The notes beneath the pieces were generated by a model. That model did not search any database. It was not told the origin of the DNA and was given only the letters and a program-made list of their open reading frames with translations. DNA of 64,000 bases. It comes from Streptomyces sp. DG2A-72. GTDB taxonomy: Bacteria; Actinomycetota; Actinomycetes; Streptomycetales; Streptomycetaceae. Where the stretch lies: positions 6,472,001-6,536,000 of the forward strand of contig NZ_JASTLC010000001.1 in assembly GCF_030499575.1 (NCBI RefSeq), given 5' to 3'. The translations under genes and the position numbers were made by a program. Position 1 is the first letter of the stretch. Each line of letters begins with the position of its first letter. Positions 7,799 to 28,126 of the stretch are shown here, piece by piece.

Positions 7799-8749
7799 TC
7801 AGTCCACCGTCACGTAGTCGGGACCGGAGTAGCGGCCGGTGGCCAGCTTCTGACGCTGCATCAGCAGATCGTTCAGGAGCGAGGACGCGCCGAAGCGGAA
7901 CCAGTGGTTGTGCAGCCAGTCCTCCCCGGCGGTCTCGTTCACCAGGACCAGGAACTTGATCGCGTCCTTGGAGGTGCGGATGCCGCCGGCGGGCTTCACG
8001 CCGACCTGGATGCCGGTCTGGAGACGGAAGTCGCGCACGGCCTCCAGCATGAGGAGTGTGTTCGCGGGAGTGGCGTTGACGGCGACCTTGCCGGTCGACG
8101 TCTTGATGAAGTCGGCGCCCGCCAGCATGCCGAGCCAGCTCGCGCGCCGGATGTTGTCGTACGTCGACAGCTCGCCGGTCTCGAAGATGACCTTCAGGCG
8201 GGCACTCGCCCCGCAGGCCTCCTTCACGGCGACGATCTCGTCGTACACCTTCATGTAGTTCCCCGCGAGGAAGGCCCCGCGGTCGATGACCATGTCGATC
8301 TCGTCGGCGCCCGCGGCGACGGCTTCCCGCACGTCGGCCAGCTTGACGGCGATCGGCGCGCGGCCCGCCGGGAAGGCGGTGGCGACGGAGGCGACCTTGA
8401 CCGTGGAGCCGGCGACGGCCGCCTTCGCGGCGGGCACCATGTCGGGGTAGACGCAGACCGCGGCCGTGGCGGGGGCCGTACGGTCGGTCGGGTCGGGGCG
8501 GACCGCCTTGGCGCCGAGCGCCCGGATCTTGCCCGGAGTGTCCGCGCCTTCCAGCGTCGTCAGGTCGACCATCGAGATGGCGAGGTCGATGGCGTACGCC
8601 TTCGCGGTCGTCTTGATGGAACGGGTACCGAGCGAGGCGGCACGCGCCTCCAGGCCGACCGCGTCGACGCCGGGCAGCCCATGGAGGAAGCGGCGCAGCG
8701 TGCTCTCGGAGGCCGCCACGTCCGTGAGGGTGTGTGCAGTGGTGGGCAT
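7799..8749 (-). CDS. deoC: Deoxyribose-phosphate aldolase
   Basis: This class I aldolase splits 2-deoxyribose 5-phosphate into acetaldehyde and glyceraldehyde 3-phosphate during deoxynucleoside catabolism. The catalytic elements are visible: DEIDMVIDRGAFLAG (acid residue), FIKTSTGK (Schiff-base Lys) and VGVKPAGGIRT (second Lys). The ATG at 8749 (MPTTAHTL) gives 316 residues; a longer start at 8791 would add a basic stretch not expected in the family. No strong Shine-Dalgarno sequence is seen. It is first in a unit with two aldehyde dehydrogenases, and purine nucleoside phosphorylase and a phosphohexomutase family gene lie about 17 kb away on the same strand, a pathway split here by the transporter block. 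Confidence 0.93.
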   Translation of the reverse strand: MPTTAHTLTDVAASESTLRRFLHGLPGVDAVGLEARAASLGTRSIKTTAKAYAIDLAISMVDLTTLEGADTPGKIRALGAKAVRPDPTDRTAPATAAVCVYPDMVPAAKAAVAGSTVKVASVATAFPAGRAPIAVKLADVREAVAAGADEIDMVIDRGAFLAGNYMKVYDEIVAVKEACGASARLKVIFETGELSTYDNIRRASWLGMLAGADFIKTSTGKVAVNATPANTLLMLEAVRDFRLQTGIQVGVKPAGGIRTSKDAIKFLVLVNETAGEDWLHNHWFRFGASSLLNDLLMQRQKLATGRYSGPDYVTVD

Positions 8750-8836
8750 GGTCACCAGACGAGCATATCTACGCGCGTAGCGGCTGTACACCCCGAGAAA
8801 GGGTTCCTTCTAGGAGAGGGGGAGGTGTCCAACGTG

Positions 8837-11433: not shown

Positions 11434-11483
11434 CGTTCACGTCAATCCCGGATGTTGCCTCTCGGGGTCGTCTCGTTCACGTC
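11434..11483 (+). promoter_or_regulatory. Direct repeats CGTTCACGTC upstream of the pst-like operon
   Basis: Two identical decamers begin at 11434 and 11474, 40 bp apart, just before pstC. GTTCAC resembles the core of Streptomyces PHO-box units bound by PhoP, but genuine PHO boxes are 11-bp units in tandem, and here the intervening sequence does not match. Treated as a weak candidate. Confidence 0.25.
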
Positions 11484-11526
11484 CGTGTGCGCAGAAGTCC
11501 ACCAGGCCTCAGGAGCGTCGGCACAT

Positions 11527-12543
11527 GTGACGACGCGAATGTATGAGCGACCTGTGGTTCCGGCGGACGACCCTCCGAGACGCCTGCACGCCGACACGGG
11601 CGTGCCCGACCGCGTTTTCCGAGGCGTCCTGCGTGGGGGCGGCGCCCTCGTGCTGGCCATCATGCTGCTCGTCGGCGGCTTTCTGACGTACCGGGCCTGG
11701 CAGGCGCTGTCCATCGCGAAGTGGGGCTTCATCACCACCGAGGCCTGGGAGCCCGACGGGGGCAACTTCGGTATCGCGGCCGTCCTCGTCGGCACGATCC
11801 TCATCGCACTCGTCGCCATCGTCTTCGCGGTACCGCTGGCACTGGGCACCGCGCTCTACATCTCCGAGTACGCGCCGCCGCGGATCAAGCAGACCCTCAT
11901 CAGCATCGTGGACCTGATGGCCGCCGTACCGTCGGTGGTCTACGGCCTGTGGGGCCTGTTCTTCTTCCAGGGCCACGTGGTCACCCTGTCGCGCTGGATC
12001 TCCACGTACTTCGGCTGGATACCGCTCTTCAAGGTCGACGGCGCCGATCCGGGGGACCCGCTCGCCACCGCCACCGTCTACACCTCCGGCTCCTTCATCG
12101 CCGGCATGGTCGTGTCGCTGATGGTCGCGCCGATCATCTGCTCGGTGATGCGGGAGGTGTTCTCGCAGGCTCCGGTCGGCGAGCGGGAAGGGGCGTACGC
12201 ACTCGGCGCGAACCGCTGGGGCATGATCCGCAGCGTCGTCCTGCCCTTCGGCAAGGGCGGCATGATCGGCGGCACCATGCTGGGCCTGGGCCGGGCGCTC
12301 GGCGAGACGATCGCCGTGTACCTGATCATCTCGCCGCTGTTCGTGATCCAGCCGCACATCCTGCAGAACGGCACCAGCTCGGTGTCCTCGCTGATCGCCC
12401 TGCGCTACGGCGAGGCGAGCGAAATCGGCATGTCGGCGCTGATGGCCGCGGGCCTCGCGCTCTTTCTGATGACCCTCGTCGTCAATTTCGTCGCGTCGTC
12501 GATCGTCGCCCGCAGCCGTTCCGGCGCGGCGAGCGACTCCTAG
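11527..12543 (+). CDS. pstC: Pst-like ABC transporter permease PstC
   Basis: This permease of about 338 residues belongs to the PstC family of phosphate-type importers. It has about six transmembrane helices and the cytoplasmic EAA loop seen as EREGAYALGANRWGMIRSVVLP, then GTMLGLGRALGETIAVYLI, the PstC signature. GTG at 11527, with AGGAG upstream, is the best start; a longer start at 11452 would add residues with no family counterpart. It opens a tightly packed operon: pstA follows after 13 bp. It pairs with PstA to form the membrane channel that PstB (21.9 kb) would energise. Confidence 0.9.
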   Translation: MTTRMYERPVVPADDPPRRLHADTGVPDRVFRGVLRGGGALVLAIMLLVGGFLTYRAWQALSIAKWGFITTEAWEPDGGNFGIAAVLVGTILIALVAIVFAVPLALGTALYISEYAPPRIKQTLISIVDLMAAVPSVVYGLWGLFFFQGHVVTLSRWISTYFGWIPLFKVDGADPGDPLATATVYTSGSFIAGMVVSLMVAPIICSVMREVFSQAPVGEREGAYALGANRWGMIRSVVLPFGKGGMIGGTMLGLGRALGETIAVYLIISPLFVIQPHILQNGTSSVSSLIALRYGEASEIGMSALMAAGLALFLMTLVVNFVASSIVARSRSGAASDS

Positions 12544-12556
12544 GAGACCGAGCACG

Positions 12557-13825
12557 ATGACCGTCACCACCGCACAGAGCCCGCCCGGCGACCAGGGACC
12601 GCGGACGAGTCCCGCGAAACCGCCGGCGCCCGGCACCACCCTGCCCGCACGCCGCAAGACACGCACCGAGTCGCGCCGCAACCTGGCCACGCTGCGCGCC
12701 ACCGACGTGTACGCCATGCTCGGCGCCGGCGCCGCCGCCCTCTGCATCACCTGGCTGATGTTCGACCGGATGCTGCCCTTCAACGGCGCACTGGGCTTCG
12801 TCGTCATCGCCTACGTGCTCTTCATCGGCCTGTACGCGCTGCTGGTCTCCTTCGACGAGGACGGCCCCGCGGTGCGCGACCGGGTGGCCGCCGCCATCAT
12901 CCAGAGCCTCGGCATAGTGATGCTGGCCGTGCTGGCGTTCGTGGTCGTCTACACCCTCTGGGAGGGCCGCGACGCGCTGCCGCACCTGAACTTCTATACG
13001 GAGTCGATGGCCGACGCGGGTCCGGTCGAGCCGCTCAGCGTCGGCGGCATCCTGCACGCGATCGTCGGCACGCTGTGGCAGATCTCCATCGCCCTGCTGA
13101 TCTGCATCCCGGCCGGGCTGGTGTGCGCGGTCTTCCTCAACGAAGTGCCGGGCGCCTTCAGCCGGTTCGTCCGCACCATGGTCGAGGCGATGACGGCGTT
13201 GCCGTCCATCGTCGCCGGCCTGTTCATCTACGCGACCTTCATCCTGGCGCTGGGCTTCGACCGCTCCGGCCTCGCCGCCGCGCTGGCGATCTGCGTGATG
13301 ATGCTGCCGATCATCATCCGCGCGGCGGACGTGGTGATCCGGCTGGTGCCCGGAACGCTGCGCGAGGCGTCGTACGCACTCGGCACCTCCCGCTGGCGCA
13401 CGGTCTGGCACGTCGTGCTGCCCACCTCCCGGTCCGGCCTCACCACGGCGATCATCCTGGGCACGGCCCGCGGCGTCGGCGAGACCTCGCCGGTGCTGCT
13501 GACCGCCGGCTACACGGCGGAGCTCAACGCCAACCCGCTCCACGACCCGATGGTGTCGCTGCCGCTGGCGGCCTTCGAACTCGTCAAGTCCCCCGAGCCC
13601 ACCTACATCGCCCGCGGTTTCGGCACCGCGGCGGTGCTTCTGGTGCTGGTGCTCGTCCTGTTCGTCATCGCCCGTGTCCTCGGCGGCCGTGGACCGGGCC
13701 AGCTCACCCGCCGCCAGGAACACCGTCGCGTCAAGGCGTCCCGCCGTGACGCGAAGCGTTTCGCGGCGAAGCCCCCCGCAGACCAGCCGTCAGACCGTCC
13801 CGCACCGACGAGGAGCACTTCGTGA
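12557..13825 (+). CDS. pstA: Pst-like ABC transporter permease PstA
   Basis: This 422-residue permease has an N-terminal cytoplasmic Pro-rich extension of about 50 residues, two extra helices (DVYAMLGAGAAALCITWLMF, LGFVVIAYVLFIGLYALLV) and then the PstA core. The core shows EAMTALPSIVAGLFIY, LREASYALGTSRWRTVWHVVLP (EAA loop) and GTARGVGETSPVLLTAG. A basic C-terminal tail is unusual. Its ribosome binding site (TAGGAGA) overlaps the pstC stop, and its own stop overlaps the GTG of the next gene (GTGA), so the four genes from pstC to the second binding protein are translationally coupled. Confidence 0.9.
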   Translation: MTVTTAQSPPGDQGPRTSPAKPPAPGTTLPARRKTRTESRRNLATLRATDVYAMLGAGAAALCITWLMFDRMLPFNGALGFVVIAYVLFIGLYALLVSFDEDGPAVRDRVAAAIIQSLGIVMLAVLAFVVVYTLWEGRDALPHLNFYTESMADAGPVEPLSVGGILHAIVGTLWQISIALLICIPAGLVCAVFLNEVPGAFSRFVRTMVEAMTALPSIVAGLFIYATFILALGFDRSGLAAALAICVMMLPIIIRAADVVIRLVPGTLREASYALGTSRWRTVWHVVLPTSRSGLTTAIILGTARGVGETSPVLLTAGYTAELNANPLHDPMVSLPLAAFELVKSPEPTYIARGFGTAAVLLVLVLVLFVIARVLGGRGPGQLTRRQEHRRVKASRRDAKRFAAKPPADQPSDRPAPTRSTS

Positions 13826-15546
13826 AACCCGCACCTGTCCGTCGTTCGCGCGCTACGCGCGTGTACCAGGCGCTGGCGCTGTTCGTCGCCGCGGTCTGCG
13901 CGCTGCTGGCCATCAACCCACCGAATGCCTCCGCGGCCACCTACACCAAGATCAGCGGCTCCGGCTCGACCTGGAGTGCCAACGCGATCGAGCAGTGGCG
14001 CCGCAACGTCCGCCAGCAGGGCATGACCGTGAACTACTCGGCGGTCGGCTCGTCGGTCGGCCGCCAGCAGTTCAAGAACGGCACCTCCGACTTCGGTGTG
14101 TCCGAGATCCCCTACGGCCTCAACGACCTCGGCCAGTCGGACCCGCCGCCCACCCGCAAGTACGCCTACATACCGATCGTGGCCGGCGGTACGTCGTTCA
14201 TGTACAACCTGAAGATCGGCGGCAGGCAGGTCACCAACCTGCGGCTGTCCGGTGACGTCCTCACCAAGATCTTCACCGGCAAGCTCACCCAGTGGAACGC
14301 TCCGGAGATCAAGGCGGACAACCCCAAGCTGGCCCTGCCGGCCCGGCGTATCGTCCCGGTCGTCCGCTCCGACGGCTCGGGTACGACCGCGCAGTTCACC
14401 CTGTGGATGTCCAAGCAGCACGGCTCGCTGTGGAACGACTACTGCCGCCGCGCGGGCAAGCAGACCCCCTGCGGCCTGACGTCGTACTTCCCCGTGGTCC
14501 CCGGCTCCGGCTTCGTCGCCCAGTCCAGTTCACTCGGTGTCGCGGGCTACACGAAGCAGTCCCAGGCCGAAGGCGCCATCACCTACGTCGAGTACTCGTA
14601 CGCCAGGAACGCGGGCTTCCCGGTGGCCAAGGTGCTCAACAGGTCCGGCTACTACGTCGAGCCGACCGCCTCCAGCGTCGCAGTCGCCCTGACCAAGGCC
14701 CGGATCAACAATGACCCGCGCTCCGCGAACTACCTGACCCAGAACCTGGACAGTGTCTACACCTTCGGGGACCGGCGCACCTACCCGCTCTCCAGCTACA
14801 GCTACATGATCATCCCGACCAAGGTGGAGAGCGGCTTCACCGCGGCCAAGGGGAAGACGCTGAGCGCGTTCAACAACTACTTCCTCTGCGACGGCCAGCA
14901 GCAGGCCGACCGGCTCGGCTACTCGCCGCTGCCGAAGAACCTGGTGGAAGCGGCGATGGCGCAGACGCGGAAGATCCCTGGTGCCGACTCGAGCAGGATC
15001 GACATCAGCAAGTGCAACAACCCGACGTTCTCCGGCGGGCGGAACACCCTGATCGAGAGCGCGCCCTACCCGGCGGCGTGCGACAAGAAGGGCCCGGACC
15101 AGTGCAAGACGGGTACCGGCGGCAACAAGAACGAGACGCCGGTCAACGGGGGCAGTTCGGGTGGGTCCGGCTCGGGCGGTTCGAGCTCGGGCGGCTCCGG
15201 CTCGACCGGTGGCTCGGGATCGACGGGCGGATCGGGCTCCACGGGCTCGGGAGGCGCCACGGGCGGCTCCGGCGGTGATACGGCAGGCAGCACCGGCGGC
15301 GCGGGCGCAGCGACCGGCGGCACGGTCGTCGACCCCGACACCGGCGAGGTCATCAGCGGCGACCAGGCCACCGGGGACACCTCCGTCGCCGCCAGCCCGG
15401 TCTCCCTGGGCGCGGACGACGCCCTCGGTCTGCGTACGGCGCTGATGGCGCTGTCGGCCGCGCTGCTGGTCGGCGTGGTCGTCGGGCCACCGGTCGTCGG
15501 GCGTCTGATGGCCAGCCGGACGCGTCGTAAGGGGGGTGTGGCATGA
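13822..15546 (+). CDS. PstS-like substrate-binding protein with Gly/Ser stalk and C-terminal membrane anchor
   Basis: This 574-residue exported protein has an N-terminal signal (about residues 1-39), a PstS-type binding domain and an unusual tail. The binding domain shows ISGSGSTWSANAI, the hinge IPIVAGGTSFMYNL followed by LSGDVLTKIFTGKLTQWN, and the phosphate-loop motif RSDGSGTT (about residues 182-189) as in true phosphate-binding proteins. A Gly/Ser/Thr linker occupies about residues 440-500, and a transmembrane helix (LMALSAALLVGVVVGPPVV) with a basic end tethers it to the membrane. Normal PstS proteins are about 370 residues and lipid-anchored at the N-terminus; this one is anchored at the other end on a flexible stalk. 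Its ATGA overlap couples it to the next gene. Confidence 0.88.
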   Translation: MKPAPVRRSRATRVYQALALFVAAVCALLAINPPNASAATYTKISGSGSTWSANAIEQWRRNVRQQGMTVNYSAVGSSVGRQQFKNGTSDFGVSEIPYGLNDLGQSDPPPTRKYAYIPIVAGGTSFMYNLKIGGRQVTNLRLSGDVLTKIFTGKLTQWNAPEIKADNPKLALPARRIVPVVRSDGSGTTAQFTLWMSKQHGSLWNDYCRRAGKQTPCGLTSYFPVVPGSGFVAQSSSLGVAGYTKQSQAEGAITYVEYSYARNAGFPVAKVLNRSGYYVEPTASSVAVALTKARINNDPRSANYLTQNLDSVYTFGDRRTYPLSSYSYMIIPTKVESGFTAAKGKTLSAFNNYFLCDGQQQADRLGYSPLPKNLVEAAMAQTRKIPGADSSRIDISKCNNPTFSGGRNTLIESAPYPAACDKKGPDQCKTGTGGNKNETPVNGGSSGGSGSGGSSSGGSGSTGGSGSTGGSGSTGSGGATGGSGGDTAGSTGGAGAATGGTVVDPDTGEVISGDQATGDTSVAASPVSLGADDALGLRTALMALSAALLVGVVVGPPVVGRLMASRTRRKGGVA

Positions 15547-18055
15547 CGACTGTGCTGACCAAGCCCCGGCCGCGCATTCTTATCGCCGTGGGCTGTCTGC
15601 TGGCCGCGCTCGTGGTGGCGTTGTTGCCGGTGCCGCCGGGGACGACGCCGGCTGCGGCGGCGACCGGTGAGGACTCCGCGGTGACGAAGTCGGGGAAGAA
15701 GGGGAAGTACGACGACTTCTCCGATCTGAAGGTGACCGTTCACCAGACGAAGAATCTGCGCTCGCAGAGTGTGCGGGTCAGTTGGGAGGGTGGGGCGCCG
15801 ACGGCGCCGAGCACCCTGTACAACATCAACTACCTGCAGATCATGCAGTGCTGGGGTGATGACCCTTCCGGTCCTGATCGGGAGCAGTGTGCCTTCGGTG
15901 CCGCTACCACGGGCGGGGCTGGAATCGGCCGGGTTGTGCGCTATGGGACCGGGACGCTTCCGGGTAGTGACGAGGACCCCGAGGAGGACGAGAAGTACAC
16001 GGGTTCGCTTCCCTTCGTCCCCTTTCGCCCGGCCAATGGTGAGCCACCCACCACGTCCGCGACGGACTACACCTACTTCGGTCCCCTGGACACCAACGAG
16101 CAGAAGGCTGTCCGGACCTTTGCGAACGGCACGGGCGAAACGGAATTCGAGGTGCAGGACGGGATTCAAGCGGACTACCTCGGCTGCGGTGTGAACGCGG
16201 CGGCCGCCGGTAATACCCCCGCCCCGCGCCCTTGCTGGCTGGTGGTCGTGCCACGCGGCACCCACGACGCCAACGGCGTAGAAATCACCAACCCCGACGG
16301 CACTACCAACCAGCTCCGTTCCTCGCCGCTGTCTGCGACGAACTGGGCTCAGCGGATGGTCTTCCGCCTGGACTTTCAGCCGGTCGACGAGTACTGCCCG
16401 GAGGGCCAGCCCGAGCGAGCCGTACCCGGCTCCGAACTCGCAGACGATGCCGTCTCGTCGTGGGCGCCGAAGTTGTGCACGTCCACGGGGAACACCTTCA
16501 CCTTCAACCGCGGGCCCGAGGACGCTGCCAGGAACGAGGTGCTGAGCACGACCGAGGAGACGCCCGCCATGGGCATCACCGTCGATCCGGTGGCTCAGTC
16601 GGTAGATGGACCACGGGTCGTGCATGCACCGGTGGCAGTGTCCGGGCTCGTGATCGCGTTCTTCATCGAAACTCCGTCCGGTGTGCTACAGGAAATGAAG
16701 CTGACTCCGCGGCTTGTGGCCAAGATGCTCACTCACTCCTACGTGAGAGATGTCCCATGGACGAATGTCTGCAACACCTCTCCCTGCCCACCTGGTGAGC
16801 CGGCCCCGCCCGAGCATCTCAAAGACAATCCACTGTATTACACTCTGGATGAGGAATTCTTGAACCTCAATCCGGAATTTGCCGAGTTGCGCATTACAAC
16901 CGCACCATTGAGTCTCATGGTCCCGCAAGGGAATTCCGACACAGCGCGAGTGATATGGAACTGGCTTCAGTCGGACAAAGAAGCCCGGGATTTCCTCTCG
17001 GGGAAGCCGGATCCCCATGGCATGGTGGTCAATAAGTACTACAAGGACTTGGATCTTGCGGACCTGACTGACTACCCCAAGTCGGACCCGACAGTAGCGC
17101 CGGCAATCGACAACAGATTCAACGACCCGCTCTCAGAATCCGTTACCTACACAATCTTGGACCTGGACCCGTATACGGCTGACCTGCACGACGGAGCCGT
17201 GAAGGCCCGACGAGGCAACAGCGGTCGCACCACCCTGTATGCGATCAGGGACGGCGAAATCCCGGCCAAGGTCGTCAACGTGCCTCCGACGCCGGGCTTT
17301 CGTAGTGCAATGGCGATCGTCGATGCCGCGTCGGCGGAACGTTACGGGTTGCAGACTGCGGCCCTGCGTAACGGGGACGGAAACTTCGTGAAGCCCTCGG
17401 GCGACACACTTCAGGCGGGCGTCAACGCCATGCAACCGTGGTCGGACAACTCCGATGTGCTCAAGCCCGATCCGGCGCGGGCGAAGGGTCGGGCCTATCC
17501 GTTGACTGCCGTGACTTACGCCGCGGCCTCGGTGAACCAAGACGCGAAGGACCGCAAGGCTTACGCGGAATTCATCAGGTACGCCGCGGGACCGGGCCAG
17601 ACGCAGGGCCTGTCGGTCGGCGAACTTCCCCCGGCTACGCACCGTTGCCGGCGAAGCTGCGCCAGCAGGCCAAGGCTGCGGCCGACGACCTGGAGCGCGG
17701 CGACCCCGGGAGCGATCCGTCGAGCGACGATCCGAACGGTTCAGGGGGACCGGCAGGCGGAGCCGGCACCGGCGGAGGGACCTCCTCCGGTACGGCCGGC
17801 GGGGGAGCGTCCGCAGGTGGACCGGGCGGCGGCGACGACCCCGGCTCGTCGGCGTCGGCAGCCTCCGCTCCGAATGGCTCCGCGCCTCCCACGTCAGGGT
17901 CTCAGCAGAATGTCGCACAAGCCGAGCCAGGAATCACACCCGGCGACATCCTCGGCATTATCCGCTGGATCCTTCTTGCCGTTCTGTTTGTAGGTGGAGC
18001 AGCAGGACTGGCAGGTCCCGTAATGCTTCGCTACGCGCAACGGCGGACTCCCTAG
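15543..18055 (+). CDS. Large PstS-related extracellular binding protein, C-terminal anchor, frameshifted
   Basis: The frame from ATG 15543 runs to 17993, but at the C run 17628-17632 the conserved reading moves to another frame ending at TAG 18055: one extra C would give GELPPGYAPLPAKLRQQ. The corrected protein has about 837 residues: a signal peptide, an N-terminal domain (YLQIMQCWGDDPSG, several Cys), a PstS-like core (HAPVAVSGLVIAFF, then MKLTPRLVAKMLTHSY near residue 386), a Gly/Ser/Pro-rich stalk and a terminal helix (IIRWILLAVLFVGGAAG) with a basic end. The RSDGSGTT phosphate loop is absent, so the ligand may differ. Uncorrected, the protein loses its anchor. The central part has unusually low G+C. 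It is coupled to the preceding binding-protein gene. Confidence 0.75.
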
Positions 18056-18225
18056 GAGGCGCCTAGGAAGCCTCCCCGTAACCTGTCCCTCGTCGGGAAT
18101 TGGTTGGCCGCCGTGTCAAATTCTGGAAATGTATCCGGTGGCCGACCGACGGGTCGGCAGCACGAAAATCCGGATTCAGCTTGAACGTCCAGCCTTCGAA
18201 AATCCAGAAAGCAAGGGGTTCAGAA

Positions 18226-19245
18226 GTGAACGTCAAGTCCTACGCCAAGGTCGGTGCTGCTTTCGGCGCCGCGGCTCTCGGTCTCGGCATCCTGGCCGCT
18301 CCGGCCTCTGCGGACCCGTCCACGTCGACCGACTACCGCACCCTGGCCGTGGTCGGCTCGGACACCACGCAGTACGTCATGAACGGCCTCGCCAACGGCA
18401 CCGCTGTCGTGGACGCCGGCGGCAACAAGCTCATGGCGTCGTGGAACGCCATCGGCGGCCTCTCCGACCCGTACAACACCAAGGCCACTGGCTGCTCGTA
18501 CACCCGCGCCCAGACCAACGGCTCCAGCAACGGCGTCGCCCGGCTGTCCGAGGACATCGCCAACGGTGGCACCACCTGCATCGACATGGCCCGCTCCTCG
18601 CGTGGCCCGAAGGCCTCCGTGCCCGGCACCGACCTCACCTACGTCCCCTTCGCCCGTGACGCCGTCACCTACGCCACGGACCTCGGCAGCACCGTGCCGA
18701 CGAACCTGACCAAGGCGCAGCTGAAGCAGATCTACCTGAACTGCACCTACACGAACGCCTCCGGCAACACGGTCACCGTGGCGCCGCTGCTGCCGCAGGC
18801 CGGCTCCGGTACGCGGCAGTACTGGCTGGACTCGATCGGGTTCACCGCGTCGGACACGATCGGCTCTTGCGTCAACCAGAACGCCCAGGAGCACGACGGT
18901 ACGGCGATCACCGCTGCCAACCAGCTCATGCCGTACTCGGTCGCTCAGTGGATCGCCCAGGGCAAGAGCATCGCGGACGTCCCGAACCGTCGTGGTGAGT
19001 CGCGTCTGCGCAACATCGACGGCCAGGCTCCCACCACCGGCTCGGGCGCCGCGCTCGCGCTCAACCCGAGCTTCGTCTTCTCCCGTGACGTCTACAACGT
19101 CGTTCAGACGTCCCGGCTGAACGAGCCCGCGGTCTCCGAAGCGCTCGCGGACATCTGTGCGGCGTCCACCACCATCACGACCTACGGCTTCGGCCCCATC
19201 TCCAACTGCAACGCGCGCAATGTCACGGGCGGCCTGAACTCGTGA
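18226..19245 (+). CDS. Secreted PstS-like substrate-binding protein
   Basis: This 339-residue protein has a signal peptide ending in APASA and no lipobox or C-terminal anchor, so it should be freely secreted. It has a PstS-like fold: VVGSDTTQYVMNGLA (about residue 43), a Cys-containing segment CIDMARSSRGP, the hinge YVPFARDAVTYA with LTKAQLKQIYLNCTYT, and LPQAGSGTRQYWLD near residue 191, which resembles the GSGT loop of phosphate-binding proteins. GTG at 18226 is chosen because AAGGGG lies 7-8 bases upstream and the signal peptide starts there. It is the third PstS-like protein in the operon. A perfect hairpin after it suggests that its transcript is a stable 3' end. Confidence 0.85.
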   Translation: MNVKSYAKVGAAFGAAALGLGILAAPASADPSTSTDYRTLAVVGSDTTQYVMNGLANGTAVVDAGGNKLMASWNAIGGLSDPYNTKATGCSYTRAQTNGSSNGVARLSEDIANGGTTCIDMARSSRGPKASVPGTDLTYVPFARDAVTYATDLGSTVPTNLTKAQLKQIYLNCTYTNASGNTVTVAPLLPQAGSGTRQYWLDSIGFTASDTIGSCVNQNAQEHDGTAITAANQLMPYSVAQWIAQGKSIADVPNRRGESRLRNIDGQAPTTGSGAALALNPSFVFSRDVYNVVQTSRLNEPAVSEALADICAASTTITTYGFGPISNCNARNVTGGLNS

Positions 19246-19268
19246 TCGTCGTCTGATCCTCGCGTGAC

Positions 19269-19295
19269 GGCCGGGCACCCTCGGGGTGCCCGGCC
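19269..19295 (+). terminator. Perfect 12-bp intra-operon hairpin
   Basis: GGCCGGGCACCC and GGGTGCCCGGCC pair fully around the loop TCG. It lies between the secreted binding protein and the LAxTG protein, with no T run, so it may attenuate transcription or protect the upstream mRNA. Confidence 0.75.
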
Positions 19296-19348
19296 CCACG
19301 TGCTGTCCCGGTATCCATCAATCGACCGTCCCCCGGGGGGCCTTCGCA

Positions 19349-20800
19349 ATGACAGTGCTACACCCGTTCCGAAGAGCGGCCGCCATCGTGGCCGCCTGCG
19401 CCGTGCTCGCCCTGGGCGTTGTGGCCCTGGTGGCGTCCCAGTCCCAGCCTGCCCGGGCGGCGTCGGTCGGCGAGTTCACGATGACGCCGAACACCGGCAA
19501 GGTGACCGATTCGCAGCCGTTCGCCGGTTCCATCCAACTCCCCGCGGCCTGCCCGGTGTTCGAGGACGGCGGCGAAACAATCCCCTTCAACTACGACCTT
19601 GTCCTCGGAGTGGTCGGTCCCGATGGTCAGGAGGTCCGCGCGCTGGACAACATCAGGGACGGGTCGCCCTACAGTGAACCGACCTCAACGGTTTCGCTGG
19701 CCCCTGAGGACAACCCGGGCATGACGGTGCTCGATCTGTCGAATGTTCTCAACAGCGATGGCACCTACGAGCTGCGTGTACGGTGCAGGGACGATTTTGG
19801 GGGCTTTGCCCCGGGTGAGCCGTACTGGTCGCAGAAGATCAGTGTGTCCGGCGACACCTGGATGGTCGGGGAGGGCGTGCAGGCCACCAGCGTTGTTCTG
19901 GGCGCCGATGACCTCGACGCCGAGATCGGCCAGGAGGTAACGCTCACCGCGACGGTCACACCGACGGATGCAGCCGGCACCGTGGCATTCCTGGAAGGCG
20001 AGACATCGCTGGGTGAGGCCACGGTCGCCAACGGCAAGGCCGAGTTCAAGACGAAGACGCTGTCCGAAGGGTCCCACGACATCGTCGCCCGATTCACGCC
20101 GACGGATGCCACGAAGTTCGGGTCCTCCGAATCCGCGTCGGCCAGAGTGCAGGTGCGGTTGGCGCGGTACGAGATGCAGGACGGATCGGGCAAGCGGCTG
20201 GCCGAAAACCCCGCACTGGAGCGGGGGCAGAAGGTGAAGCTCATCGTCCGGAGATGCCAGCCTGATACGACATTCGCCCTTGCCATGGAACGGAACGACG
20301 CCGAGTTCCCCAGCGCGAAGTCCGACGCCGGCGGAACCGTGACCTGGCAGGAACTCGCCATTCCGGATGACGCGGTCGAGGGTGATAGCGCGTGGACGCT
20401 CAGCCCGGGCTGCACAGGCGAAGTTGTTACCGACGGTACGTTGGCGGCCGTGCCGTTCACCGTGCCCGCCCCGTCCTCCGAGTCCCCCGGCGACGACCCG
20501 TCGGACGAACCCTCCGACGACCCGTCGGACGACCCCTCCGGTGAGCCGAGCGACGACCCTTCGGGCGACACGTCCGGCACCACATCGGGCACGACGTCCG
20601 GCGCGGCCGACGGAGGAAGCACCACCGGCGGCGACTCCACCTCCGGCGGCACCTCGCCGCAGGGCGGCCTCGCCTCCACCGGTAGCCAGATCGCGCTCTT
20701 CTCCGGCATCGGCGCCATCGTCCTCACCGCGGCCGGCATCGCCTTCGTGCGCTACGGCCGCCGCAACGGGCTGCTGAACTTCGGCGACCCGAACGCGTAA
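19349..20800 (+). CDS. Cell-wall-anchored Ig-like protein with LAxTG sorting signal
   Basis: This 483-residue surface protein has a signal peptide (ending near QPARA), an N-terminal beta domain with Cys pairs, a bacterial Ig-like domain (EVTLTATVTPTDAAGTVAFL to EGSHDIVARFTPTD), a further domain and an Asp/Ser/Pro/Gly-rich stalk. It ends with a sortase signal: LASTG (about residues 441-445), a hydrophobic helix and a basic tail RYGRRNG. LAxTG is the motif of class E sortases in Streptomyces, which would link it to peptidoglycan. ATG 19349 is chosen over GTG 19286, which lies inside the preceding hairpin. A sortase-like gene follows after 89 bp. Confidence 0.85.
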   Translation: MTVLHPFRRAAAIVAACAVLALGVVALVASQSQPARAASVGEFTMTPNTGKVTDSQPFAGSIQLPAACPVFEDGGETIPFNYDLVLGVVGPDGQEVRALDNIRDGSPYSEPTSTVSLAPEDNPGMTVLDLSNVLNSDGTYELRVRCRDDFGGFAPGEPYWSQKISVSGDTWMVGEGVQATSVVLGADDLDAEIGQEVTLTATVTPTDAAGTVAFLEGETSLGEATVANGKAEFKTKTLSEGSHDIVARFTPTDATKFGSSESASARVQVRLARYEMQDGSGKRLAENPALERGQKVKLIVRRCQPDTTFALAMERNDAEFPSAKSDAGGTVTWQELAIPDDAVEGDSAWTLSPGCTGEVVTDGTLAAVPFTVPAPSSESPGDDPSDEPSDDPSDDPSGEPSDDPSGDTSGTTSGTTSGAADGGSTTGGDSTSGGTSPQGGLASTGSQIALFSGIGAIVLTAAGIAFVRYGRRNGLLNFGDPNA

Positions 20801-20816
20801 CACACCGACGGAGCAC

Positions 20817-20843
20817 GGGCGGCGGGCCCCCACCCCGCCGCCC
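20817..20843 (+). terminator. Intra-operon hairpin
   Basis: GGGCGGCGGG and CCCGCCGCCC form a 10-bp stem with a 7-base loop, 17 bp after the LAxTG gene. No T run follows, so readthrough into the sortase-like gene is likely. Confidence 0.6.
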
Positions 20844-20889
20844 GCGCCCCCGTTTCTCCACTCCACCCTTCTTCACAGGAGCGCACCCC

Positions 20890-21837
20890 GTGACCGTGCT
20901 GTCCCCGCCCCCGCCGGCCGTGGCGCCGCCGGCGCCGGAGCCTTCCCCCGAGCCCGAGCCCGAGCGCAGCTCCGGGGCGCCGCGCGCGGAACGCGCAGGC
21001 TTCGCGTTCGCCGGGGCCGCGCTGTGCGTGCTCGCCGCCCTGCTGCTCGGCTTCGCCGCCAACCTCACGATCGTGGGCCACCTCCAGCACTCCCGCGACC
21101 AGCAGACCGCGTACGACGAGTTCCGCCGTCAACTCGCCCTCGGTGTCGCGCCGGTGGGCCAGCAGACGTACGACGGCAAGCTGCTGGATCCGGGCGCGCC
21201 CGTCGCGCTGCTGCGCATTCCGGCCCTGGGCCTGAAGGAAGTCGTCGCGGAAGGCACCGCTTCCGGTGTGCTGATGTCGGGCCCCGGCCACCGCCGGGAC
21301 ACCCCGCTGCCGGGACAGGCCGGCACGAGCGTGATCATGGGCCGCCAGTGGGGATACGGCAGCCCGTTCAACAGCCTGCACGAGTTGCCCGTAGGCACCG
21401 AGATCCGGGTGACGACCGGTCAGGGCACGGCCACCTACGAGGTCACGGCCATCCGCCGCGAGGGCGACCCGTTGCCGCCCACGCTCAAGCAGGACGAGGG
21501 CCGGCTCACGCTCATCACCGCCGAGGGCAGGCCGTACACCCCCTCCGGCACGATCCGCGTCGACGCGACGCTCACGAGCGACGTACAGCCCGCTCCGCCG
21601 CGCCCGCTCGCCCCCGGCTGGATAGACGACTCCGAGCAGTCCCTGGGCAGTGAGGACACCGCCTGGCTCCCGGTCTTCCTCTGGTCGCAGGGGCTGCTCC
21701 TGGCCGCCCTGCTCACCATGGCCGCGTATCGCGCGTGGGGCCGCTGGCAGACGTGGATCGTCGGCGTACCCGTACTGGCCGCCTTCGGCCTCGCCGTCTC
21801 CAGCGCCGCCACCCGCCTTCTGCCCAACCTGCTCTGA
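20890..21837 (+). CDS. Sortase E-like protein lacking catalytic His and Cys
   Basis: This 315-residue membrane protein has a Pro/Glu-rich cytoplasmic N-terminus, one transmembrane helix, a sortase domain and two C-terminal helices. The sortase fold is recognisable (LLRIPALGLKEVVAEG, GPGHRRDTPLPGQAGTSVIM, GSPFNSLHELPVGTEIRV). In active class E enzymes the catalytic His lies in a V-I-x-G-H motif; here it is VIMGRQW, with Arg at about residue 152. The catalytic Cys normally ends an L-T-L-x-T-C motif; here it is LTLITAEG, with Ala at about residue 211. Both catalytic residues are therefore missing, so it probably cannot perform transpeptidation and may act as a scaffold or receptor for LAxTG substrates. 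GTG 20890 follows AGGAG. It sits directly before pstB. Confidence 0.85.
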   Translation: MTVLSPPPPAVAPPAPEPSPEPEPERSSGAPRAERAGFAFAGAALCVLAALLLGFAANLTIVGHLQHSRDQQTAYDEFRRQLALGVAPVGQQTYDGKLLDPGAPVALLRIPALGLKEVVAEGTASGVLMSGPGHRRDTPLPGQAGTSVIMGRQWGYGSPFNSLHELPVGTEIRVTTGQGTATYEVTAIRREGDPLPPTLKQDEGRLTLITAEGRPYTPSGTIRVDATLTSDVQPAPPRPLAPGWIDDSEQSLGSEDTAWLPVFLWSQGLLLAALLTMAAYRAWGRWQTWIVGVPVLAAFGLAVSSAATRLLPNLL

Positions 21838-21858
21838 CCGCCGAGGAGTTCAGCCATC

Positions 21859-22746
21859 ATGTCCGACACCACCGACACGACCGACACCCTCGCCGACGAG
21901 ATCCTCGATCCGACGAGAAGTATGACGGCCGTCAGATCACCCAAGCTCGGCGCGGCCACCGCGGACAGCAACCCGGCCACCCTGGAGGCCGACGCCATCT
22001 CGGCCTGGTTCGGCAACCACAAGGTCCTCGAACAGGTCTCGCTGACCATGCCGGCCCGCAAGGTCACCGCGCTCATCGGCCCGTCCGGCTGCGGCAAGTC
22101 CACGTTCCTGCGGATCCTCAACCGCATGCACGAACTGGTCGGCTCCGCCTCCCTCGCAGGCCGGGTGCTCCTCGACGGCGACGACATCTACGACCGTGGC
22201 CGCCGCATCACCCACGCCCGCCGCCAGATCGGCATGGTCTTCCAGAAGCCCAACCCCTTCCCCGCGATGTCGATCTACGACAACGTCACGGCCGGCCTGA
22301 AGCTCGCCGGCATCAAGGCGGGCCGCGAGGACAAGGACTGGCTGGTCGAGGAGTGCTTGACCAAGGCGGGCCTCTGGAAGGAAGTCCGCGACCGCCTCCG
22401 CCAGCCCGGCGGCGCGCTCTCCGGCGGCCAGCAGCAGCGCCTGTGCATCGCGCGCTCGCTGGCGGTACGTCCGCGCGTGTTGCTGATGGACGAGCCGTGC
22501 TCGGCGCTCGACCCGACCTCCACGCGACGCATCGAGGAGACGATCCACGAGCTCTCCGGAGAGGTCACGATCGTCATCGTCACCCACAACATGCAGCAGG
22601 CGGCCCGAGTCTCCGACCAATGCGCGTTCTTCCTGGCGGCGCAAGGCACCCCGGGAGTCATCGTCGAACACGGCGCCACCGACGCGATGTTCAACAGCCC
22701 GCAGGACCCGCGCACGACGGATTACGTGAACGGCCGCTTCGGCTGA
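21859..22746 (+). CDS. pstB: Pst-like ABC transporter ATPase PstB
   Basis: This 295-residue cytoplasmic ATPase is a PstB family member. Walker A is GPSGCGKST (about residues 74-82), the Q-loop segment is [20 protein letters not shown], which is characteristic of PstB, the signature is LSGGQQQR, Walker B is VLLMDEP and the switch His is in [12 protein letters not shown]. An N-terminal extension of about 45 residues is longer than usual. The gene is separated from pstC and pstA by about 8 kb of exported-protein genes, all on the same strand, whereas classical pst operons place it directly after pstA. No PhoU gene follows. It lies 21 bp after the sortase-like gene. Confidence 0.92.
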
Positions 22747-22777
22747 GGGAACGGCCCTGGAACAGGAGGTTCTGAGC

Positions 22778-23581
22778 GTGACGACCACGGGACGATCCGG
22801 CCGTACGGTGGCCCGTACCACCGCCCTCGTGACCGTGGCCGTGGTCGCGTCCGCCGCCCTGGCGGGATGTGCCGTTCCCGGCGTCGACGACAAGTCGCTC
22901 GCGGGCCCGCCCGCGAGCGCCCCGGCCACCGTCCCGTCTCCCGATCAGGTGCCCACAACGCCGACCGAGCCGACCCGCCACGGCACACCGACCCCAACCG
23001 TCACGCCTGAACCCGCTCCCACGGCATCCACCCGCCAACCCCCGCCGTCCCCCGGCAAGCCCACCACCATCCCGAAGGCGAAGCTCCCGGACCTGTCCGC
23101 CACCGCGCCCCCGTCCGCCCCCTCGCGCCCCCGCAGCACGCCCGTGAAGCCCTCGCCGAAGCCGTCCGCCGTGCCCCGCGCGGAGGCGTTCGGTGGGCGC
23201 AGCGAGGACGGCTCGACCACCCTGCGGGTGGGCTCCTGGTCCACCGAGGTCGTCCGCGGTGGGCAGGACGCGGTGGACGCCTGCGACGACGCCGTGCAGT
23301 GGACCGGGCCCGACCTGGGGACGGAGGACGGCCACGCGCTGCGCACCACCGTCATCGTCGGCCACGACTACTGCGGCTTCGCGCAGTTCGCCAAGTTGCC
23401 GGTGGGCACGACGGTCACCGCCACCACCCCGCGCGGCACCTTCAAGTACCGCGTCTACGCCAACTACGTATCGCCCGGCCGCGGTACGCCCTCCAGCGGC
23501 CTCTACTGGGGCGACCTGACGCTCCAGTCCTGCGTCGGCCCGAACACGGGATTCAGCTATCTCACGCGGGTCGAGTCATAG
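22778..23581 (+). CDS. Lipoprotein with a sortase-like domain (His/Cys/Arg intact)
   Basis: This 267-residue protein has a lipoprotein signal (lipobox ALAGC near residue 30), a Pro/Thr-rich spacer of about 110 residues and a C-terminal sortase-like domain. The catalytic elements are all present: TVIVGHDYCGF (His about 196), DLTLQSC (Cys about 252) and an Arg at about 264 near the C-terminus. Sortases are normally held by a transmembrane helix; a lipid-anchored one is unusual. GTG 22778 is preceded by AGGAGG. It lies 31 bp after pstB and closes the operon. It could supply the activity missing from the upstream sortase homologue, which is my inference. Confidence 0.75.
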   Translation: MTTTGRSGRTVARTTALVTVAVVASAALAGCAVPGVDDKSLAGPPASAPATVPSPDQVPTTPTEPTRHGTPTPTVTPEPAPTASTRQPPPSPGKPTTIPKAKLPDLSATAPPSAPSRPRSTPVKPSPKPSAVPRAEAFGGRSEDGSTTLRVGSWSTEVVRGGQDAVDACDDAVQWTGPDLGTEDGHALRTTVIVGHDYCGFAQFAKLPVGTTVTATTPRGTFKYRVYANYVSPGRGTPSSGLYWGDLTLQSCVGPNTGFSYLTRVES

Positions 23582-23769
23582 CCTCGCCGACACCCCCGTC
23601 ACATCCGCCAGTTGTTCATCTCCCCTTAGCCCTCCGGAGTCGGCCAGGCGTCCCGCCGCGGTCGCCCGCTGTCTAGCGTCGGGCGCGGCAACCGGAACTG
23701 GCACCTCACGCCCCGTGCGCCCCCGATGGGCCTATGCGCCTCGAACTCCCGACCGTCAGGAGTGACTTC

Positions 23770-25107
23770 ATGTCCCGTCCGCTCACCAGACCCTTCCGCC
23801 GAGTGGGCGCACGGCTGCGCACCCGGCGTGGCCTGCGCGGTACGGCCGTTGCCACGTTCGCCACGGTTGCCGCGGCTCTGCTCACCGCGGGTTCCCAGGC
23901 GCCGGGGCCCGTAGGGGCGACTCGGGCGGCGGGGGAGGACGAGGGGATGAGGGTGCCCGGTGGATTCGTGGCGCCGGACGCCCCGCTGCCGGAGGTTCCC
24001 TCGCAGGGCGACGACTCCTACCACGTCGAACTACCGCCGCTGAACGGCGTGTCGGGCGCCGAGAAGCTGTGGGGCGAGAAAGCCGTGACGGCCTCTGAGC
24101 AGCAGGTCGCGGCGGAGGCCGGTCTGCCGGTGAGTGTGCTCGGCGCCTATCGGAAGGCCGCGCAGTCGGTCGGCCGTACGGACCCCGGCTGCGGTCTGCG
24201 CTGGGAACTGCTCGCCGCGATCGGCAAGGTCGAGTCGGGGCACGCGGGCGGCGGCGCCGTCGCGGCGAACGGCGACACCCTCACCCGGATCACCGGACCG
24301 GCCCTCGACGGCAACGGCTTCGCGCTGATCCTCGACAGCGAGGGTGGCGCATGGGACGGGGACGCCGTCTACGACCGGGCCGTGGGGCCGATGCAGTTCC
24401 TGCCGACTACATGGAAGACGTGGGGTGCCGACGGCAACGGCGACGGCACCGCGAACCCCAACAACATCCACGACGCCGCCCTCGCCGCCGGTCACTACCT
24501 GTGCGCGGGCAAGCGGGACTTGGGCACCGCGGCGGGACTCGAGCGGGCGATCCTCAGCTACAACTACTCGCGCGACTACCTCAACCTCGTCCTCGGCTGG
24601 ATGGAGTTCTACCTGCGCGGTGTGCACACTGTGCCCGACGGCGAGGGTGTCGTTCCCAAGAGCCCCGGAGCGGGTGGCACCACGCCGCCCAGGAGGCCCG
24701 TACGCGAAGGCGATGTGGGAGGCGGGGACATCCCCGAGGCCCCGGACACCACCGCGCCCGGCGACAGTGCCACGCCGTCGCCCTCGCCCGCCACGCCCAC
24801 TCGGCCGGCGTCCCCCAAGCCGTCCCTGCCCTCCCCGCCGTTGCCGAGCGCCAGCCCCACGCCGACCACCACTCCGAGCCCGACGGCCGAGCCCACGCCC
24901 AGCGACACCCCGAGCGAGACCCCCGCAGAATCACCCACAGCCTCCGAGCCCGTACCCACGGAGACACCCACGGAGACCGCCACCCCGGATCCCGGGCCGT
25001 CCACCGAAACCCCGGCATCCCCCACACCCACCGGGACGACCCCTGAACCCACCCCGTCCGACACCACCGCCGCCGCTTCCGAGGCATCCGTCACGCCCAC
25101 TGGCTGA
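23770..25107 (+). CDS. Secreted lytic murein transglycosylase (SLT type)
   Basis: This 445-residue exported protein has an N-terminal signal, a lytic transglycosylase domain and a long Pro/Thr/Ser-rich tail of about 140 residues. The catalytic Glu is in LAAIGKVESGHA, and the fold is supported by YDRAVGPMQFLPTTWKTWGA and NIHDAALAAGHYLCAG. Such enzymes cleave peptidoglycan glycan strands to give 1,6-anhydro ends and remodel the wall, which would suit the insertion of wall-spanning components by the neighbouring operon. ATG 23770 is chosen for its AGGAG; an upstream ATG at 23734 lacks one. A 188-bp gap separates it from the sortase-like gene, so it may have its own promoter. Confidence 0.85.
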   Translation: MSRPLTRPFRRVGARLRTRRGLRGTAVATFATVAAALLTAGSQAPGPVGATRAAGEDEGMRVPGGFVAPDAPLPEVPSQGDDSYHVELPPLNGVSGAEKLWGEKAVTASEQQVAAEAGLPVSVLGAYRKAAQSVGRTDPGCGLRWELLAAIGKVESGHAGGGAVAANGDTLTRITGPALDGNGFALILDSEGGAWDGDAVYDRAVGPMQFLPTTWKTWGADGNGDGTANPNNIHDAALAAGHYLCAGKRDLGTAAGLERAILSYNYSRDYLNLVLGWMEFYLRGVHTVPDGEGVVPKSPGAGGTTPPRRPVREGDVGGGDIPEAPDTTAPGDSATPSPSPATPTRPASPKPSLPSPPLPSASPTPTTTPSPTAEPTPSDTPSETPAESPTASEPVPTETPTETATPDPGPSTETPASPTPTGTTPEPTPSDTTAAASEASVTPTG

Positions 25108-25372: not shown

Positions 25373-27004
25373 TCAGATGCCGGCCGCCGCGGAAAGGTCC
25401 CGCTTGATGGCGTCCAGCAGCTCGGCGGCCGTCGCGCGTGCCGCGGGCAGCCCGTCGTGCGCGGCGACCGGCACGACGACCTCCAGGTAGCACTTCAGCT
25501 TCGGCTCCGTGCCGCTGGGGCGTACGACGACCCGGGCGCCGTCGAGCGTGTAGCGCAGGCCGTCCGTGGGCGGCAGCCTGTCCGTGCCCCGCGTCAGGTC
25601 TTCGGCGTCGGTGATGGCCAGTCCCGCCAGCTCGGTCGGCGGCTGCTCGCGCAGGCGCCGCATGGCGTCCGCGATGACCGACAGGTCGTCCACGCGGACG
25701 GAGAGCTGGTCGGTGGCGTGCAGGCCGTGCTCCACGGCGAGGTCGTCGAGGAGGTCGAGAAGTGTGTGTCCCTGCTCCTTCAGCTCGGACGCCAGCTCGG
25801 TGACGAGGAGGGCCGCGGTGATGCCGTCCTTGTCGCGTACGCCGTCGGGGTCGACGCAGTAGCCGAGGGCCTCTTCGTAGCCGTAGCGCAGACCGTCCAC
25901 GCGGGCGATCCACTTGAAGCCGGTGAGCGTCTCCTCGTACGGCAGTCCCGCCTTCTCGGCGATCCGCCCGAGCAGGGACGACGACACGATCGACTCGGCG
26001 AACGTGCCCTGTGCGCCGCGCCGGACGAGGTGGGCGGCGAGGAGGGAGCCGACCTCGTCGCCGCGGAGCATGCGCCAGTCGGCGCCGTCCTTGACGGCCA
26101 CCGCGCACCGGTCGGCGTCGGGGTCGTTCGCGATGATCAGGTCCGGCTCGGTCTCGCGGGCCTTGGTGAAGGCCAGGTCCATCGCGCCGGGCTCTTCCGG
26201 GTTGGGGAAGGCGACGGTCGGGAAGTCCGGGTCGGGCTCGGCCTGCTCGGCGACGAGCACCGGCTCAGGGAAGCCGGCGCGGGCGAACGCGGCCAGCAGG
26301 ACGTCCTTGCCGACGCCGTGCATCGCCGTGTAGACGGTGCGGGCGGTGCGCGGGGTCCCGGCGGTCAGGACGGCGTCCGTGCGGGCGAGGTAGGCGTCGA
26401 GGACGGCGTCGTCGAGCGTTTCCCAGCCGGAGTCGGGGCGGGGGACATCGGCGAGGGCGGCGATCGCGTCGATCTCGGCCGCGATCTCCGCGTCCGCCGG
26501 CGGAACGATCTGCGAGCCGTCGCCGAGGTACACCTTGTAGCCGTTGTCGCGGGGCGGGTTGTGGCTGGCGGTGACCTCCACACCGGCGACCGCGCCCAGG
26601 TGCCGTATGGCGTAGGCGAGGACGGGGGTGGGGAGGGGGCGGGGCAGGACGGCCGCGCGCAGGCCCGCGCCCGTCATCACGGCGGCGGTGTCGCGGGCGA
26701 AGTCGGCGGACTTGTGGCGGGCGTCGTAGCCGACTACGACCAGCCCGCCGGCCTGACCGTTCTTCCTCAGGTACGCGGCGAGACCCGCCGCCGCGCGGAT
26801 GACGACCGAGCGGTTCATGCGCATCGGGCCGGCGCCCAGCTCACCGCGCAGACCGGCCGTACCGAACTGGAGCGTGCCGGCGAAACGCTCGCCCAGCCCT
26901 GTGACGTCCCCGGCCTCGATGAGACCCGCGAGCTCGTCGCGGGTCTCCGCGTCGGGGTCCTCGGCGAGCCACGCCTGGGCCCGGGCGATGAGATCGTCGT
27001 GCAC
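25373..27004 (-). CDS. Phosphomannomutase/phosphoglucomutase family enzyme
   Basis: This 543-residue alpha-D-phosphohexomutase shows FGTAGLRGELGAGPMRMN at the N-terminus, the phosphoserine loop VEVTASHNPPRDNGYKVY, the metal loop NDPDADRCAV, the sugar-binding segment GFKWIARVDGL and the phosphate-binding RPSGTEPKLKCYLE. It interconverts hexose 1- and 6-phosphates and, in the deo context, possibly pentose phosphates. GTG 27004 with GAGAGG upstream is chosen; an upstream extension to 27160 is low-complexity repeat sequence. It precedes no close downstream gene and lies downstream of the nucleoside phosphorylase, consistent with a role after phosphorolysis. The family assignment is firm; the exact sugar is not. 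Confidence 0.9.
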   Translation of the reverse strand: MHDDLIARAQAWLAEDPDAETRDELAGLIEAGDVTGLGERFAGTLQFGTAGLRGELGAGPMRMNRSVVIRAAAGLAAYLRKNGQAGGLVVVGYDARHKSADFARDTAAVMTGAGLRAAVLPRPLPTPVLAYAIRHLGAVAGVEVTASHNPPRDNGYKVYLGDGSQIVPPADAEIAAEIDAIAALADVPRPDSGWETLDDAVLDAYLARTDAVLTAGTPRTARTVYTAMHGVGKDVLLAAFARAGFPEPVLVAEQAEPDPDFPTVAFPNPEEPGAMDLAFTKARETEPDLIIANDPDADRCAVAVKDGADWRMLRGDEVGSLLAAHLVRRGAQGTFAESIVSSSLLGRIAEKAGLPYEETLTGFKWIARVDGLRYGYEEALGYCVDPDGVRDKDGITAALLVTELASELKEQGHTLLDLLDDLAVEHGLHATDQLSVRVDDLSVIADAMRRLREQPPTELAGLAITDAEDLTRGTDRLPPTDGLRYTLDGARVVVRPSGTEPKLKCYLEVVVPVAAHDGLPAARATAAELLDAIKRDLSAAAGI

Positions 27005-27050
27005 GTCGGGTACCTCTCGTTGTGTCCGTACGGTGTCGGGTGCGGGCCGG

Positions 27051-27180: not shown

Positions 27181-27198
27181 GCGGGGGCGAGAAACGCC

Positions 27199-28029: not shown

Positions 28030-28126
28030 GAGGGTAGCCGGTCCGGGCCTACGCGCGTAGATGACAGAGCTCACGGGATGGCGATCGTTGTCTTGTTGTT
28101 TCCGACGAAGCCGGCCGGCCGGGTGC

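Follow-up and report, generated by a model that had tools for sequence, protein, structure and literature searches.

A recurrent Pst-type importer cluster with a sortase-like protein lacking catalytic residues in Streptomyces: a possible relay through the cell wall

Streptomyces sp. DG2A-72 carries, besides its canonical phosphate importer genes, a second Pst-type cluster that combines importer genes with genes for surface proteins. The cluster lies at positions 11452-23581 of the window, the whole 64,000-nucleotide stretch that we analysed (RefSeq assembly GCF_030499575.1, contig NZ_JASTLC010000001.1, positions 6,472,001 to 6,536,000; host genome 10.6 Mb). All of its genes are on the + strand. 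It encodes the permeases PstC and PstA, the ATPase PstB, three PstS-type binding proteins (S1, S2 and S3), a protein with a cell wall sorting signal, and a sortase-fold membrane protein, psSrt, that has neither the catalytic His nor the catalytic Cys. The same gene set recurs across the phylum, an arrangement far beyond chance. We give an even chance to the proposal that these parts form one envelope-spanning relay for phosphate or a similar oxyanion.

The genes of the cluster are as follows (Ig, immunoglobulin-like).
11452..12543 (start possibly 11527), +: pstC, permease; TIGR02138 at 250.5 bits (cut-off 196.45)
12557..13825, +: pstA, permease; TIGR00974 at 213.2 bits (cut-off 193.45)
13822..15546, +: S1, PstS with a C-terminal membrane helix replacing the lipid anchor; TIGR00975 at 218.4 bits (cut-off 205), and matches to PstS proteins in the PDB
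15543..18055, +: S2, large binding-protein-like protein, frame broken near 17630; weak TIGR00975 match; predicted parts, from AlphaFold2 and Foldseek on the relative L042, are an N-terminal beta-rich region, a PstS fold and a C-terminal helix
18229..19245 (start predicted), +: S3, predicted secreted binding protein; weak ptsS_2 match and profile matches to phosphate-binding proteins in the PDB
19286..20800, +: Ig-domain protein with a LASTG sorting signal (motif, helix and basic tail); Big_3_5; NF058582 at 23.8 bits, below the cut-off of 27
20890..21837, +: psSrt, sortase-fold membrane protein without catalytic His and Cys; PF04203 at 59.2 bits (cut-off 26.6)
21859..22746, +: pstB, ATPase; TIGR00972 at 341.3 bits, just below the cut-off of 343.2; Walker and signature motifs kept
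22778..23581, +: lpSrt, lipoprotein with a sortase-like domain that keeps His, Cys and Arg, a patchy accessory; PF04203 at 20.0 bits, below the cut-off of 26.6

A preliminary description of this DNA had noted same-strand genes with 4-bp overlaps or short gaps. This is what we find: overlaps of 4 bp at pstA/S1 and at S1/S2, and remaining gaps of 13, 173, 40, 89, 21 and 31 bp in gene order. Several gene starts are predicted, above all that of S3. The names pstC, pstA and PstS-like S1 hold as well, for all three proteins pass the curated NCBIfam equivalog cut-offs, which PstB narrowly misses. The promoter scan predicted no sigma-70-type promoter, and terminator-like sites numbered 9 against 5.3 (standard deviation 2.8) in shuffled sequences; the two scans did not settle the limits of the operon.

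A sortase fold without catalytic residues

When psSrt is aligned to solved sortases, Arg152 takes the position of the catalytic His and Ala211 that of the catalytic Cys. In an alignment of 125 rows, the His site is Arg in 122 and Lys in 3, and never His. The Cys site holds Ala (105 rows), Ser (9), Gly (9), Thr (1) or Val (1), and 124 of the 125 rows have no Cys anywhere in the domain. MAFFT places the Cys column one position off from HMMER, and by either there is no Cys. The third position of the triad varies, with Arg in 75 of 92 rows. The 125-row sets used here and below include six loci taken twice (119 distinct loci); this leaves the result unchanged.

How the relatives were found matters for these counts. 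A search with the psSrt alignment yielded 410 places in the named genomes that encode a relative. The best 80 of these 410 form our set of named loci, selected by two psSrt motifs. Because one of the motifs includes Arg at the His site, the active-site tally in the 80 named loci is partly circular. The 33 psSrt proteins reached through a search with S2 are free of that circularity. Among these 33 (window row excluded) the His site is Arg in 30 and Lys in 3. None has the catalytic Cys, its position being Ala, Ser, Gly, Thr or Val. Judged by these residues, psSrt is catalytically dead in every relative examined.

The AlphaFold2 model of psSrt has a predicted local distance difference test (pLDDT) score of 88.4. 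It shows a barrel at about residues 104-228, one long N-terminal helix and two C-terminal helices. All matches listed by Foldseek are sortases (best 4d70, 3.1e-11), and the model thus supports a sortase fold. The membrane sortase-like protein of the preliminary description therefore keeps its fold but loses its catalytic His and Cys.

A close comparison is the class E sortase SrtE1. The accessible text of the SrtE1 study gives the triad as His251, Cys320 and Arg329 and proposes Tyr229 as the residue that reads the LAxTG signal (PMC5148588). In the SrtE1-like protein of the host genome, the Y of GHY corresponds to this Tyr and precedes the His by 22 residues (counted by eye, then aligned). Its psSrt counterpart is the first R of GHRR, and over the 125 rows this position is Arg in 110, Leu in 8, Gln in 5, Lys in 1 and Glu in 1. 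psSrt shares with class E sortases the fold and the overall sequence pattern GPGH...G-[HR]...LTL-T. Unlike SrtE1, psSrt has its His, its Cys and mostly its Tyr replaced, and has two extra C-terminal helices.

A gene set kept together across families

Many Streptomyces-type genomes carry the cluster, as do actinobacteria with small genomes. With S2 as query and the own genome counted, relatives were found in 85 of 297 genomes of the family, in 53 of 394 of the class, where they cover 25 of 137 genera, and in 7 of 396 of the phylum. Three of these seven lie outside the class; the full core is present in L157 and L158, and everything except S3 in L159. Within the genus, 12 of 61 genomes have a psSrt match at E 1e-60 or better, and weaker matches resemble other sortases. 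The 80 named loci come from Streptomyces, Kitasatospora, Streptacidiphilus, Actinacidiphila, Jiangella, Plantactinospora, Dactylosporangium, Allonocardiopsis, Amycolatopsis and others.

Gene order is conserved too. Of the 66 loci whose flanks are long enough, 64 show the core pstC-pstA-S1-S2-S3-[wall protein]-psSrt-pstB in a consistent order; the two exceptions (L102 and L116) each have one extra pst-type match. S2, S3, psSrt and pstB are present in all 66, S1 and the LAxTG-protein profile in 64. PstA was found in 56 and PstC in 46, two genes that the 10-kb flank cuts off. In 79 of the 80 named loci pstB directly follows psSrt. Distant families have a shifted order, with psSrt straight after S2, pstB first or last, and S3 and the wall genes after, and their parts are still clustered.

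Starting from S2 gives the same picture. We took 40 regions around S2 matches, from 39 of the 53 class genomes. PstC, PstA and S1 are present in 39 of the 40 (PstA is weak in L151, and L123 begins at a contig edge). psSrt is present in 33, and in the remaining seven regions the contig breaks off no more than about 6.2 kb beyond S2. Of the 33 regions with psSrt, 31 have S3 and 30 have pstB (L132 and L154 are cut there; in L119 none was found). The preliminary description had staked its interpretation on a conserved gene order and a conserved association between transporter and sortase genes, and both are borne out by these counts. Nearly as constant as the ATPase, psSrt is best seen, on this distribution, as a subunit.

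Among the matches in the 12 genus genomes, two loci look like remnants (L031 and L035), in which only psSrt and pstB are retained as far as the profiles detect. By eye, a transposase-like open reading frame (ORF) lies immediately upstream in L031; L035 has a pair of WxL and WxLIP genes nearby. Two genomes hold two copies of the cluster each: Streptomyces odonnellii, with both on the same contig (L071/L103), and another genome (L118/L119).

Three different binding proteins

The preliminary description spoke of two C-terminally anchored PstS-like proteins. For S1 this stands, as 111 of 114 rows have a predicted helix at the C-terminus. S2 has such a helix in 115 of 117 rows, but in the window its anchor is read from a second frame. 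The S2 frame parts near 17630, where the first frame continues to an unrelated C-terminus, and the anchor comes from the ORF at 17438-18055. In eight relatives from the genus S2 reads through intact. For S3 the helix is predicted in 3 of 122 rows.

S1 retains the motifs GSGST, GSS and RSDGSGTT. The later part of S2 aligns with S1 at 97.7% probability, and in the relative L042 (AlphaFold2, pLDDT 80.5, ends of low confidence) this part matches the PstS fold with a Foldseek template modelling score of 0.80 to 8ods (by target length). The S2 pocket motifs that we tested are poorly conserved. S3 aligns weakly with S1 (75%) and, by profile, with phosphate-binding proteins in the PDB; its conserved motifs are GSDTTQ, RSS and GSGTR. 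Judging from these motifs and alignments, the three binding proteins are not equivalent: S1 has a PstS pocket with one change (described below), S2 a degenerate pocket, and S3 belongs to a different branch.

In three loci (L032, L033 and L034) S3 is, by eye, apparently fused to Ig-like repeats in a single ORF. Such a fusion hints that S3 and the Ig protein may work together.

Predicted wall proteins and other sortases

The predicted wall protein of the window has the C-terminal make-up of a sorting signal (LASTG, then a hydrophobic stretch and basic residues) and carries a Big_3_5 domain; the LAxTG Ig-domain protein of the preliminary description is thereby confirmed. Among 123 matches to the profile of this protein, 78 have a helix at the end, and L[AP]xT[GA] occurs in 60, in 57 of them as LAxTG.

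Other lineages have a different wall module. A WxLIP-like gene is present in 36 of 131 loci, in all 36 side by side with a WxL-like gene; a WxL-like search with the C-terminal part as query found 38 loci. These loci are mostly outside Streptomyces, with L103, L107, L110, L113 and the remnant L035 as Streptomyces-type exceptions. Pfam confirms WxLIP in L112 and L137 and finds WxL in L112 at the cut-off; WxLIP in L131 is below it. Among the proteins of the window Pfam finds neither domain. According to the available part of a study of WxL/WxLIP surface clusters, WxLIP binds peptidoglycan and WxL (PMC10599100). Some of our loci resemble those clusters in their adjacent WxL-like and WxLIP-like genes. 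They differ in that WxL proteins there are said, in the same part of the text, to bind hosts and peptidoglycan, whereas here they are paired with an importer (PMC10599100).

Since psSrt cannot do sortase chemistry, attachment of the LAxTG protein would depend on a different sortase of the genome or on the patchy lpSrt. The host genome has 11 other matches to the Sortase domain. lpSrt is present in 25 of the 80 named loci, and in 30 aligned rows it has His in 28 (2 gaps), Cys in 29 and Arg in 29. A search of lpSrt against PDB sequences gave no match. Hence, of the lipoprotein with a sortase-like domain proposed earlier, the triad stands in nearly all relatives but the window copy stays below the Pfam cut-off. 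Likewise, surface anchoring built into the operon is backed by the LAxTG protein and the patchy lpSrt but not by the conserved sortase-fold protein, which lacks catalysis.

A separate importer lineage

The host genome also has a canonical pst operon (L036), whose PstS has, by eye, a lipobox-like LTAC and the usual Asp (GSDSA). PstC, PstA, PstB and S1 of the window are 43-80% identical to their counterparts in ten other cassette loci, versus 27-57% to the canonical copies of their own genome. Each of the 18 genomes checked carries two or more pstC genes.

In a PstC tree of 44 rows, a branch with support 100/99, present in all 200 bootstrap trees, separates the 25 cassette rows from the others. 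The 19 non-cassette copies are those with a retrieved locus and include four long branches (L170, L175, L178 and L166); at least one more copy, in genome G624, had no such locus. An earlier tree that contained two rows less than half filled (the non-cassette L170 and L175) gave 58/99. By this phylogeny, cassette PstC is a clade apart from ordinary PstC.

Regulation may point to phosphate in part of the range. The PHO box consists of two 11-nucleotide repeats, with the core GTTCACC in S. coelicolor, according to the accessible text of PMC4415409. PHO-box-like repeats with 12-13 of 14 positions stand before pstC on the coding strand in 8 of 77 loci (a set that includes repeated loci), from three families, and at most 1 in 100 shuffles scored as well. 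A ninth locus (L033) has the repeat on the other strand. The canonical pst operon of the host genome scores 13 of 14. These repeats suggest a phosphate link in some lineages, not in that of the window.

Neighbouring genes

A transglycosylase gene (SLT_2, 23734-25107) comes after lpSrt, and transglycosylase profile matches recur downstream of pstB in loci of another family (L143, L145, L149, L150 and L151). The cluster is flanked by a deoC-like gene (7799-8791) and by phosphomannomutase/purine nucleoside phosphorylase-like genes (25373-28074; names by eye). Because the latter flank the cluster in many Streptomyces loci, the site looks shared. Further along, a stretch with lower G+C holds an L,D-transpeptidase with Ig domains (46966-48228, +) and a subtilase of 1101 amino acids (48723-52028, -).

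A proposed relay through the wall and its alternatives

To explain why these genes stay together, we propose a relay. Phosphate or a similar oxyanion would be caught in the thick wall and then passed to the permease. S3 and the LAxTG protein (WxL and WxLIP proteins in other lineages) would act in the wall, and S1, held by its C-terminal helix instead of a lipid, would deliver the ligand to PstC/PstA. S2, with its degenerate pocket, may be a scaffold or gate between the binding proteins and the permease, beside which psSrt would be a non-enzymatic docking subunit. Because Arg mostly stands where a sortase would have its LAxTG-reading Tyr and its catalytic His, the former active site of psSrt may hold an anion or an acidic peptide rather than a sorting signal. 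Attachment of the LAxTG protein, if any, would fall to another sortase of the genome or to lpSrt.

The cluster has PstC, PstA, PstB and PstS by NCBIfam equivalog models (PstB just under the cut-off), as a PstSCAB importer does. It departs from such an importer in its three dissimilar binding proteins, the helix that tethers S1, the pocket change from Asp to Glu, the wall proteins, the dead sortase and a PstC clade of its own. In place of the single lipoprotein or periplasmic PstS of a Pst importer there are three binding proteins, and S1 ends in a predicted membrane helix. For the specialised importer with binding proteins spread over the envelope, as first described, the association of transporter and sortase genes is conserved; the binding proteins are not equivalent. 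Overall the preliminary observation is partly confirmed and its interpretation partly supported.

Several results weigh against the relay as we propose it. In S1 the pocket Asp of SDxP is retained in only 12 of 111 rows and replaced by Glu in 97 and by Ser in 2, so the ligand may not be phosphate. The S2 copy of the window may not work, unless the frame break is a sequencing error. No PHO box was found before pstC in the window (8 of 14 positions) or in its close Streptomyces relatives. The set is also incomplete in places: L119, the second cassette of one genome, has psSrt, and pstB was not found there; the psSrt locus L109 is without pstB within 2.5 kb; S3 was not found in L139 and L142.

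The first of these results raises the alternative of an importer built as proposed for a ligand other than inorganic phosphate, be it another oxyanion, a phosphate-bearing organic compound or a wall fragment. The Glu in the S1 pocket, RSS and GSGTR in S3 in place of the usual motifs, the other pstC already present in all 18 genomes and the missing PHO box of the window all favour it. However, S1, PstC and PstA pass phosphate equivalog cut-offs, S1 retains RSDGSGTT and 8 of 77 loci have PHO-box-like repeats, and we consider such a ligand rather unlikely. As an active sortase dedicated to the LAxTG protein, psSrt is ruled out by the missing His and Cys. As a dead one it could still serve wall proteins rather than transport: it would hold or chaperone the LAxTG or WxL protein at the membrane, to be taken over by a real sortase or by WxLIP, and the importer would be merely co-regulated. 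The sortase fold and the wall-protein genes adjoining psSrt in many loci fit this role. Yet the proposed LAxTG-reading Tyr is Arg in most rows, psSrt stays with S2 and pstB even where the wall genes lie elsewhere or have no LAxTG, and its nearest partner is pstB. We regard this role as possible but unlikely.

Two further explanations do away with the relay altogether, and we judge both to be very improbable. One is an ordinary second or duplicated pst operon lying by chance among surface-protein genes. In its favour, many surveyed Streptomyces do without the cluster (it is present in 12 of 61), which makes it dispensable. Against it, content and order are kept across families and outside the class, and the surface genes and sortase-fold genes come back repeatedly together with a PstC clade of its own. 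The other is a device for sensing or adhesion built from borrowed Pst parts, with little or no net transport. It would suit the degenerate S2 pocket and the wall-binding and Ig domains, but the Walker and signature motifs of PstB are intact in nearly all of 125 rows.

The proposed relay can be set beside the Isd heme relay of Gram-positive bacteria, whose wall proteins bind the ligand and whose sortase is active. The two are alike in logic alone, each combining wall proteins and a sortase-family gene with an ATP-binding cassette (ABC) importer. In our cluster an Ig domain is all that the LAxTG protein shows, the conserved sortase-fold protein is dead and lpSrt is patchy. The cluster is not a member of the Isd relay. 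As a tentative and rather doubtful idea, it may be a phosphate counterpart of Isd, in which a sortase was turned into an importer subunit and its arginine-refilled site holds an anion or acidic tail in transit between binding proteins bound to the wall and the Pst permease. In the literature searched, of which subscription papers were mostly out of reach, we recognised no description of a conserved dead sortase or of such a cluster.

We know of no other sortase-fold protein whose conserved role is non-enzymatic and linked to a transporter; psSrt would be the first. If the relay exists, thick-walled bacteria would have a built-in route for an anion through the wall. How a solute and its binding protein meet across the Gram-positive wall would then become a question with named genes.

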